A stretch of DNA of 64,000 bases from an uncultured Clostridia bacterium (GTDB taxonomy: Bacteria > Bacillota > Clostridia > Oscillospirales > Acutalibacteraceae), in the NCBI GenBank assembly GCA_946555465.1, contig CAMNST010000014.1, positions 1 to 64,000 of the forward strand. Direction: 5' to 3'. Positions 4,105-28,421 of the stretch are shown here, piece after piece; the stretch's first letter is position 1, and each line of letters starts with the position of its first letter. The position numbers and the translations under genes were made by a program. Under the pieces are notes generated by a model that worked only from the letters and a program-made list of their open reading frames with translations, searched no databases and was not told the origin of the DNA.

Positions 4105-4195
4105 GCAGAAGTACTCAAGTTGGTGACGAGGCGCCCCTGCTAAGGGCGTAGGTCGGGCAACCGGCGCGAGAGTTCGAGTCTCTCCTTCTGCGCCA
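4105..4195 (+). tRNA. tRNA-Ser (anticodon GCT)
   Basis: 91-nt class II tRNA: acceptor GCAGAAG/CTTCTGC, anticodon stem CGCCC/GGGCG, loop CTGCTAA, a long variable arm, T-stem GAGAG/CTCTC with T-loop TTCGAGT, and an encoded CCA. Its 3' part, from the G after TTC, is repeated 144 bases downstream. Confidence 0.96.
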
Positions 4196-4196
4196 T

Positions 4197-4226
4197 AAAA
4201 AGAGTGTGTTTTCACACTCTTTTTTG
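4197..4226. terminator. terminator 1 of tRNA-Ser(GCT)
   Basis: 12-base perfect stem AAAAAGAGTGTG / CACACTCTTTTT with a TTTT loop and a T-run, starting two bases after the CCA. A diverged second version lies at 4347-4376. Confidence 0.88.
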
Positions 4227-4238
4227 TTTTTTTATAGA

Positions 4239-4345
4239 GACGAGAAACGAACTCCGAATTTTGAACAGAGTGAAAAATTCGGGAGAAAGGTCCGGTGGAC
4301 CTTTCGATAGTTGAGAGGAGAGTCTCTCCTTCTGCGCCATAAAAA
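4239..4345 (+). repeat. two-hairpin tRNA-tail repeat, copy A
   Basis: The body (4239-4319) opens with GACGAGAAACGAA. Hairpin 1 pairs CTCCGAATTTT (from 4252) with AAAATTCGGGAG (to 4285), with one bulged G. Hairpin 2 pairs AAAGGTCC (4286-4293) with GGACCTTT (4297-4304) around GGT, and the unit closes with CGATAGTTGAGAGGA. It is followed at 4320-4345 by an exact 26-base copy of the tRNA-Ser 3' end (4176-4201), including CCA. The duplicate cannot form a complete tRNA. The same architecture recurs at 27962-28079 after tRNA-Arg. I do not recognise this as a named repeat. It could be a tRNA-targeting mobile element or a structured RNA. Confidence 0.75.
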
Positions 4346-4346
4346 A

Positions 4347-4376
4347 GAGAGTGTAAAAATACACTCTCCTTTTTTA
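4347..4376. terminator. terminator 2, shared with the cotF-like gene
   Basis: Stem GAGAGTGTA / TACACTCTC with flanking A and T runs. On the plus strand it ends the duplicated tRNA tail; on the minus strand it ends the coat-protein gene, whose stop codon it touches. It resembles terminator 1 but differs at several paired positions. Confidence 0.8.
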
Positions 4377-4625
4377 TTGCATTTGTGTGCCGAATTTCAT
4401 TTTTAAAGAATTGATTTTTGTCTCTTCTGCCTGGTCGGTCGAATACCAGCCTTTTTCAGACATTTTGTCATATACTGTATCCTGCATGGTCAATGCATTG
4501 TTAAGTGCATTGCTGAATGTTTGGTGAACGTTATCAGTTGAAGATTCAATAGCACCGTGCATATATAAATCACATACTCCTTTTTCAAGAAGTAAAATAT
4601 CTTCCATTAAATTCTTATCATCCAT
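4374..4625 (-). CDS. spore coat protein CotF-like
   Basis: 83 residues from ATG 4625 behind AAGGAG. The short, mostly helical sequence (LMEDILLLEKGVCDLYMHG, then TFSNALNNALTMQDTVYDKM and GWYSTDQAE) matches the Coat F family: helical-bundle proteins found in the coat or inside of endospores. It is the second gene of a two-gene minus-strand unit with the 57-residue protein 15 bases upstream, and shares its terminator with the tRNA-Ser repeat. The family call is from the motif order GWY-A at the C-terminus. It implies that the host makes spores, or descends from a spore former. No sporulation sigma promoter could be identified with confidence. Confidence 0.75.
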   Translation of the reverse strand: MDDKNLMEDILLLEKGVCDLYMHGAIESSTDNVHQTFSNALNNALTMQDTVYDKMSEKGWYSTDQAEETKINSLKMKFGTQMQ

Positions 4626-27796: not shown

Positions 27797-27870
27797 GCGG
27801 GTGTAGTTCAATGGTAGAATCCCAGCCTTCCAAGCTGGTCGTGTGGGTTCGATTCCCATCACCCGCTCCA
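27797..27870 (+). tRNA. tRNA-Gly (anticodon TCC)
   Basis: 74-nt cloverleaf: acceptor GCGGGTG/CACCCGC (the T pairs with A), anticodon stem CCAGC/GCTGG, loop CTTCCAA, T-loop TTCGATT and an encoded CCA. First gene of the cluster. Confidence 0.96.
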
Positions 27871-27873
27871 TAT

Positions 27874-27950
27874 GCGCTGATAGCTCAGCTGGATAGAGCA
27901 ACTGCCTTCTAAGCAGTAGGTCGGGGGTTCGAGTCCCTCTCAGCGCGCCA
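27874..27950 (+). tRNA. tRNA-Arg (anticodon TCT)
   Basis: 77-nt cloverleaf: acceptor GCGCTGA/TCAGCGC, anticodon stem ACTGC/GCAGT, loop CTTCTAA, T-stem GGGGG/CCCTC (one G-U) with T-loop TTCGAGT, and an encoded CCA. Its 3' end, from the G after TTC, is repeated 116 bases downstream. Confidence 0.96.
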
Positions 27951-27961
27951 GCGCTAATGGG

Positions 27962-28079
27962 GATGAGAAACGAAATTCAAAAGTTTTGATTTTATAAAAA
28001 CTTTTGACAGAAAATAGTCCGGTGGACTGTTTTCGCATTGAGAAGAGAGTCCCTCTCAGCGCGCTAGCGCTAGTGAGGA
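27962..28079 (+). repeat. two-hairpin tRNA-tail repeat, copy B
   Basis: The body (27962-28046) opens with GATGAGAAACGAA. Hairpin 1 pairs TCAAAAGTTTT (27977-27987) with AAAACTTTTGA (27997-28007). Hairpin 2 pairs AAAATAGTCC (28011-28020) with GGACTGTTTT (28024-28033) around GGT, and the unit closes with CGCATTGAGAAGA. Then follows a 33-base copy (28047-28079, three mismatches) of the tRNA-Arg 3' end and its flank (27931-27963); here the CCA has become CTA. It has the same plan as copy A at 4239-4345. There is no terminator between tRNA-Arg and this repeat, so it should be transcribed inside the tRNA precursor. Confidence 0.75.
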
Positions 28080-28145
28080 CGAGATGTACGTTCTGAAAAG
28101 TTCCTTTCGGCATACCGGCGTGTAACTAATGTGTTAAATAAATAT

Positions 28146-28223
28146 GGTGGGATTAGTTCAGTTGGTTAGAGCGCCAGTTTGTGGCACTGGAGGTCATCGG
28201 TTCGAATCCGATATCCCACCCCA
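28146..28223 (+). tRNA. tRNA-His (anticodon GTG)
   Basis: Cloverleaf with acceptor GTGGGAT/ATCCCAC, anticodon stem CCAGT/ACTGG, loop TTGTGGC, T-loop TTCGAAT, discriminator C and encoded CCA. The base before the stem (28146) is the G-1 that pairs with the discriminator C, as required for tRNA-His. Confidence 0.96.
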
Positions 28224-28243
28224 CTATTTTTAATTCCCTATAA

Positions 28244-28318
28244 TGGGGAGTAGCCAAGCGGTAAGGCAACGGACTTTGACTCCGTCATGCGTGGGTTCGA
28301 ATCCCGCCTCCCCAGCCA
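28244..28318 (+). tRNA. tRNA-Gln (anticodon TTG)
   Basis: 75-nt cloverleaf: acceptor TGGGGAG/CTCCCCA, anticodon stem ACGGA/TCCGT, loop CTTTGAC, T-loop TTCGAAT and an encoded CCA. Confidence 0.96.
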
Positions 28319-28345
28319 ACTCCCTGAAAATAAAAAATTCAATAT

Positions 28346-28421
28346 GATCCATTAGCTCAGATGGCAGAGCACTTGACTTTTAATCAAGGTGTCCGGGGTT
28401 CGACTCCCCGATGGGTCACCA
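28346..28421 (+). tRNA. tRNA-Lys (anticodon TTT)
   Basis: 76-nt cloverleaf: acceptor GATCCAT/ATGGGTC, anticodon stem CTTGA/TCAAG, loop CTTTTAA, T-loop TTCGACT and an encoded CCA. Last gene of the cluster. Confidence 0.96.

Follow-up and report, generated by a model that had tools for sequence, protein, structure and literature searches.

A family of tiny gene-free inserts at tRNA and housekeeping gene ends in gut Clostridia

Near the start of the window, by which we mean the whole stretch of 64,000 nucleotides analysed, tRNA-Ser(GCT) is followed by a terminator, a body of two hairpins, an exact 26-base copy of the 3' end of the tRNA and a second terminator. What is this insert, and how does it come to carry a copy of the gene behind which it lies? 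A preliminary description had read this layout from the letters alone, together with the same body plan behind another tRNA at 27.96 kb, and had proposed either a small mobile element moved by enzymes in trans or a functional RNA. Both layouts are in the sequence as described, the second being a copy behind tRNA-Arg, and the analysis adds what that description lacked: an outer stem, a left arm that is an inverted copy of the tRNA T-arm, and the same layout behind protein genes. The insert belongs to a family of tiny gene-free inserts found where tRNA and housekeeping genes of gut Clostridia end, most of them with both a direct and an inverted copy of the gene; a unit consists of a portable, strongly covarying core between two locally derived arms. 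Our preferred reading, to which we assign a probability of roughly 0.38, is a gene-free, non-autonomous micro-element of integrative type, moved in trans by a site-specific recombinase and with arms that template copying keeps matched to the target.

Two copies in the window and the core family

In what follows, A is the copied stretch of the target gene, A' the left arm of the unit, an inverted copy of roughly 10–24 bp of that gene, K the core, A2 the right arm, with which a direct copy of the gene 3' end starts, and B whatever separates A from A', including the first terminator of copy 1 (Table 1). Copy 1 spans 4235–4345 as a whole and copy 2, with the same order of parts, 27959–28064. Both bodies fold better than shuffled sequences: that of copy 1 (4235–4319) forms two hairpins at −24.4 kcal/mol (z −2.57; 1 of 200 shuffles equally good), and that of copy 2 (27962–28046) has a z of −3.89 (0 of 200). 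The covariance model described below matches copy 1 at 4245–4322 with 34.4 bits and copy 2 at 27973–28048 with 27.9 bits. As judged by eye, 4236–4241 of the left arm of copy 1 pairs with 4178–4183 and 4248–4254 with 4170–4176, separated by an interruption of 6 nt, and this arm scores under the threshold of our inverted-arm test, as does copy 2. The right arm of copy 1 is identical to 4176–4201 at 26 of 26 positions (direct-copy score 57; copy 2, 34). No terminator lies between tRNA-Arg and the left arm of copy 2, which leaves an inverted spacing of no more than about 22 nt and sets this copy apart from most others; the stretch behind its right arm is probably the remnant of a further unit. Copy 2 sits between the Arg and His genes of a five-tRNA cluster (Gly, Arg, His, Gln, Lys; 27797–28421).

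Table 1. Features of the two window copies
Feature	Position	Strand	Basis
tRNA-Ser(GCT), target gene of copy 1	4105..4195	+	ARAGORN, sequence
A of copy 1, T-arm part of tRNA-Ser(GCT)	about 4170-4185	+	sequence
First terminator of copy 1	4197..4230	+	sequence
Left arm A' of copy 1, interrupted inverted T-arm copy	4235..4254	+	by eye
Core K of copy 1	4250..4312	+	folds, covariance model
Outer stem of copy 1	4250-4253/4309-4312	+	fold
Hairpin 1 of copy 1	4253-4283	+	fold
Hairpin 2 of copy 1, triloop GGT	4285-4305	+	fold
Right arm of copy 1, start of direct copy of tRNA 3' end	4320..4345	+	sequence
Second terminator of copy 1	4340..4378	+	sequence; resembles the first terminator without being identical
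tRNA-Arg(TCT), target gene of copy 2	27874..27950	+	ARAGORN
Short left arm and core K of copy 2	27959..28046	+	sequence, fold, model match
Hairpin 2 of copy 2	around 28017-28027	+	fold
Right arm of copy 2, repeating 27931-27948 over 18 nt	28047..28064	+	sequence
Candidate remnant of a further unit, resembles 27950-27969	28065..28084	+	by eye

The 11-mer GTCCGGTGGAC of hairpin 2 occurs 11 times in the 2.23 Mb of the genome to which the window belongs (reversed control, 0), and a covariance model built from five cores of this genome has 16 matches in it at E ≤ 0.01. Among 60 genomes, 39 contain model matches, comprising 31 of the 37 of the genus (own genome included) and 8 of the 23 outside it, with up to 24 matches in one genus genome and a best E value outside the genus of 2.6e-5. 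Across the class the exact hairpin pattern has a patchy distribution (18 matches in 6 of 118 genomes; reversed control, 0), and a hairpin scan of genome contigs returned at least 120 stretches, many of them matching hairpin 2 alone and in other contexts; 18 two-armed tRNA units from these stretches, on other contigs and mostly of Clostridia, differ in hairpin 1 and the outer stem. The family is thus one of many copies, which the preliminary description had named as support to be sought by a covariance search of related genomes, and the statement that no named repeat has this layout holds as far as Rfam goes: of its 4227 families only those of tRNAs reach the gathering score in the window, and scans at low threshold gave nothing beyond sub-threshold matches to unrelated families. 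The fetched loci hold 104 model matches, of which the best 93 were kept for the counts below.

The core consists of an outer stem that encloses hairpin 1 and hairpin 2, the latter with triloop RGN (GGT 44, AGT 20, GGG 9 and GGC 6 among 79 cores, identical repeats within a locus being counted once and four cores that lack a clean hairpin-2 centre being set aside). An alignment of all 104 matches, 92 of them distinct, was made to fit the structure and is therefore biased towards it; within it, two-sided change is seen at 21 of 23 core pairs, none of 500 shuffles reaches any of five measures, and paired cells amount to 94.1%, against 80.0% in shuffles and 24–48% with slid partners. Stem changes are two-sided in 262 cells and one-sided in 12, and G-U makes up 14 of about 1835 standard pairs in the core, against 135 of 1928 in the tRNA stems of the same loci. 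We take two-sided changes joined with so little G-U as a sign of DNA copying between the arms. Among mismatches, however, G-U exceeds A-C (9 to 3 in A:A', 5 to 0 in hairpin 2), which speaks instead for a sense RNA that folds. A structured RNA acting at the 3' ends of genes, in termination, 3'-end protection or attenuation under selection on A:A' and the core stems, would account for the two-sided changes, for the mismatch ratios, expected if the sense strand folds, and for the persistence of one unit type within clades at gyrB with A' in step. We consider it improbable nonetheless, as G-U is about nine times rarer than in tRNA stems, the unit sits past a terminator at tRNA loci, and no complete unit is present at 19 of 30 gyrB and 27 of 30 serC loci.

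Target genes and the arms copied from them

Of the 93 hits, 33 lie directly behind a tRNA gene and 9 further behind one, most of the latter being tandem copies, while for 23 the gene whose 3' end precedes the core is, by our own reading, recognisably protein-coding: gyrB (7), guaA (4), serC (3), rubrerythrin (3), groEL (2) and, once each, pyruvate phosphate dikinase, malic enzyme, rpsI and a sugar kinase. One hit is at the 5' end of dapF, which was among ten example target genes confirmed with NCBIfam and Pfam. The tRNA 3' end, which the preliminary description had taken as the defining feature, naming its presence beside all copies as support, therefore gives way to a wider set of gene ends. 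That description had also named copies lying mostly away from tRNA genes as an outcome that would speak against it, and with 23 of 93 hits behind protein genes, the count goes part of the way there.

Both arms match the local gene, and it is the core that is portable. At the left end, 50 of the 86 hits with enough left flank carry an upstream stretch in inverted copy; so do 75 of 1720 swapped pairs, which include pairs with a common target, and none of 86 reversed controls. The spacing from A to A' has a median of 64.5 nt (47–75, a range partly bounded by the search window). At the right end, a direct copy of the upstream stretch begins a median of 2 nt past the core in 53 of the 82 hits with enough flanks, compared with 49 of 1640 swapped pairs and none of 82 reversed controls. 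The 36 of 86 hits with no detectable inverted arm include second copies in arrays, four guaA units, units within a longer repeat and both window copies, whose inverted arm is short or interrupted. The guaA units (L100, L102, L048 and L091) are devoid of an inverted copy of guaA and have as left arm a small hairpin past the stop codon, GAGTGGGAGTGA; the same 12 nt precede the cores in L039 and L090. The longer repeat, a hairpin sequence 'CTTTTGCTCGG.GGAGTGAATTGTGCGAAGCACAAGAGACACGTGGCTCC', encloses the core in three loci of one genome (L083, L084 and L085 of G028), where the core is identical, and in L078 and L043, where it is similar; it is possibly a MITE that carries the core.

The same pairing of arms is seen at the tRNAs themselves. 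Among 98 distinct tRNAs in the fetched loci, which were chosen for holding a core or hairpin and so give no genome-wide rates, 54 are followed by an inverted T-arm; a direct copy of the tRNA 3' end is present as well in 39 of these, compared with 6 of the 44 that have no inverted T-arm. An inverted T-arm accompanies 46 of 64 tRNAs with the hairpin-2 pattern downstream and 7 of 34 without it (reversed control, 0); in 5 of these 7, inspection by eye revealed hairpin-2 variants that the pattern had missed. In 22 of the 39 tRNA units with both arms, the terminator on the element side is unlike the one past the second tRNA 3' end, and in one locus (L041) two unlike terminators are each followed by an inverted arm, both of which fit site-specific accretion of units. 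The two B stretches of fresh copies are, in turn, nearly identical (for example 85/88 in L005, 76/80 in L004 and 71/74 in L003), as local copying would produce more readily than transfer from another species.

These two observations pull towards different origins. The close rival of the recombinase dispenses with a dedicated enzyme and derives the order gene-B-A'-K-A2-B from two template switches at a replication fork, an event of the tandem-inversion-duplication type in which only K comes from elsewhere. Two such switches yield a forward-inverted-forward order with A' and the second B both locally templated, the very low G-U content agrees with it, and so do the sizes in the data set of PMC8604942, where template switching homogenises inverted arms of at least 7 bp across spacers of up to 70 bp. 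It leaves unexplained how K reaches new sites, why the same T-arm position is used repeatedly across tRNA families, and why 22 of 39 tRNA units carry unlike element-side terminators. Since the terminators fit accretion and the near-identity of the B stretches fits copying, we place the recombinase ahead and hold the template-switch origin to be a doubtful yet serious competitor.

Core similarity was compared with target and genome over 57 of the 93 hits (named target, one per locus). For the whole core the permutation p is 0.000 for target and 0.059 for genome; for the inner core the values of 0.012 and 0.079 are ambiguous. That whole-core lineages track the target more than the genome would suit an RNA-guided element, in which A' and A2 might act as guide segments pairing with both strands of A; the target loop of the IS110 bridge RNA and the homing guides of CRISPR-associated transposons pair with their targets in this manner. 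The two arms do flank a hairpin core at fairly constant spacing, and each could pair with a different strand of one target. We nevertheless think such an element very unlikely: IS110 (PF02371) has no match in any of ten K-rich genomes, and a perfect match to each species' own gene variant demands extra assumptions.

Filled and empty sites, and candidate enzymes

That the unit inserts is shown by filled and empty sites at serC. Of 30 species loci, 3 are filled (G010, G036 and G024) and 27 are without K. In G010, the serC stop is separated from the native start of the next gene by 308 bp, made up of two 154-bp units, the last B running into that start; in G006, the sister of G010 on the gyrB tree, stop and start overlap as TAATG with no insert, and at least 14 empty loci, G006 included, have a stop that overlaps the next start. 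Units of about 150–220 bp sit at 3' ends, in one case at a 5' end, and the target gene stays whole because its end is duplicated. Of the earlier proposal of a small element moved in trans, insertion is borne out, and empty sites exist in related species, where it had named those of sister strains as support; the enzyme acting in trans would be its conjectural part.

At gyrB, A'-K is present at 11 of 30 loci, A' alone or in part at 2, and neither at 17. Over 12 of these loci (the 11 with A'-K and G006 with A' only, an 8-nt remnant in G031 being omitted), A' matches A of its own species over 11–14 bp free of mismatches (16/17 in G000), and the A' of other species averages lower (8.7 against 11–14.5), though variants common to several species bring 31 of 132 cross-species comparisons up to the lowest own value. 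Each of core types II and III stays within a clade, type I not wholly so (G014 stands apart). Confinement of types together with the own-species match indicates that the arm has changed in step with the gene within a clade, either by selection or by copying. Two contigs of the own genome (C3 and C8; loci L003 and L007) stop within the gyrB unit, and so tandem units probably broke the assembly.

Enzymes were searched for next to the units and genome-wide. The own genome, 97% complete, has no match to RVT_1, Y1_Tnp or IS110. Retrotransposition could in principle produce the long duplication, through target-primed synthesis at two distant nicks, but with RVT_1 in 9 of 38 genus genomes and missing from six K-rich ones (G002, G007, G008, G024, G034 and G036) we regard it as scarcely credible. 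A Y1 transposase is found in 19 of 38 genus genomes, unrelated to copy number, which makes this enzyme unlikely, as is IS110, found in 0 of 10 K-rich genomes. Phage_integrase is found in all ten K-rich genomes (1–13 each; 11 in the own genome). The absence of an integrase near the copies, noted previously, extends to the own genome, where 0 of 15 core positions lie within 12 kb of an integrase match, and across the ten genomes just 4 of 90 core positions have one within 5 kb. In two of these four that were inspected, the integrase belongs to a larger element, of about 8 and 19 kb, sitting in tRNA-Leu(GAG) or tRNA-Met between the tRNA and the terminator-A'-K, and the tRNA-side end of both elements is without K; integrase elements at the same tRNAs mean that other elements use K-unit sites. 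The attL/attR ends of larger elements, expected at units that have no near direct copy, were sought in eleven longer stretches behind such units, and no integrase was recognised by eye beside the core in the listed ORF ends.

In the recombinase reading, a trans-acting site-specific enzyme, in all likelihood a tyrosine recombinase supplied by resident mobile elements with the same sites, would join target A to the right arm, perhaps on a folded A'-K-A2 hairpin; folded single-strand recombination sites exist in integrons and CTX phage. DNA template switching between the inverted arms would afterwards keep A' and the K stems perfect, and through it A' would follow the host gene as the gene evolves. 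The choice of sites counts for this reading: the sites listed for tyrosine-integrase elements in PMC5704250 are tRNA genes, rpsI and further housekeeping genes, each at the 3' end, and K-unit sites are the same. Against it stand the lack of an enzyme linked to the element (the 4 of 90 above), the near-identity of the B stretches, the 36 of 86 hits with no detectable inverted arm, and an A' that extends past any plausible crossover and that recombination alone does not explain; moreover, over a dozen different targets share one core, so that a single tyrosine integrase would hardly serve.

A bolder version, which we put forward tentatively and as the less likely outcome, is a self-customising mobile element, of which only the folded core of 60–90 nt travels and writes both arms from the target. 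The same core would then settle harmlessly at unrelated gene ends and re-adapt its arm as the host gene evolves; we know of no class of mobile DNA that writes its own arms from the target at insertion.

Likeness to known elements

The nearest relatives in behaviour are CIMEs and integrative mobilizable elements, which share the gene 3'-end sites (tRNA, rpsI and others), the direct repeats on either side by which the gene stays whole, and tandem accretion, according to PMC5704250. K units have such attL/attR-like repeats with the gene end (the 53 of 82 hits and 39 of 54 inverted-arm tRNAs above) and a clean empty site in a relative (G006 against G010), and as a rule no integrase was found close to them or in a larger relative that shares their ends (4 of 90 within 5 kb). 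CIMEs are decayed elements, whereas the K unit is repeated and gene-free; its folded core is conserved, and its inverted arm derives from the target. Like REP/BIME sequences, other small palindromic bacterial repeats and MITEs, K units are short, gene-free, multicopy, intergenic and built of hairpins; unlike in these, their arms differ per target and copy it, and Y1 transposase is not tied to their copy number. Integron attC sites and the folded attP of CTX phage also form a long imperfect hairpin whose stem may serve as recombination site, but the likeness of fold is only broad, K units are located at gene ends, and to our knowledge the K core is unrelated to either in sequence. We likewise know of no target-derived arms in the mitochondrial double or repetitive hairpin elements. 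These belong to another type of genome, though they too are small, mobile-looking and gene-free (PMC2800124). In sum of likenesses the K unit is CIME-like in its use of sites and of small-palindromic-repeat size, and its target-derived inverted arm sets it apart from both. Its layout was not found described among open-licence PMC papers, and the matches listed for the hairpin letters were unrelated, mostly on human or cell-biology subjects.

The K unit offers a testable case of mobility without coding capacity, with arms taken from the host gene. It would show very small elements using gene ends as safe harbours, and its 262 two-sided against 12 one-sided changes would be a natural record of template switching between inverted repeats. 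It also explains part of the spurious small ORFs, and of the contig breaks beside tRNA and gyrB genes, in Clostridia assemblies. Such ORFs, read from stop to stop through the core and antisense T-arm, contain strings that recur, among them NSPVDCF and RTCDPL (L071, L103 and other K loci). Further afield, a hairpin AACAGTCCGGTGGACTGTT occurs in Streptococcus sobrinus DSM 20742 (L148, 1647–1665), near further tandem copies of its inner part and in an unrelated context, and similar hairpins precede 'AGCGAGGGGCCAG' in Algoriphagus (L152, L176 and L186).
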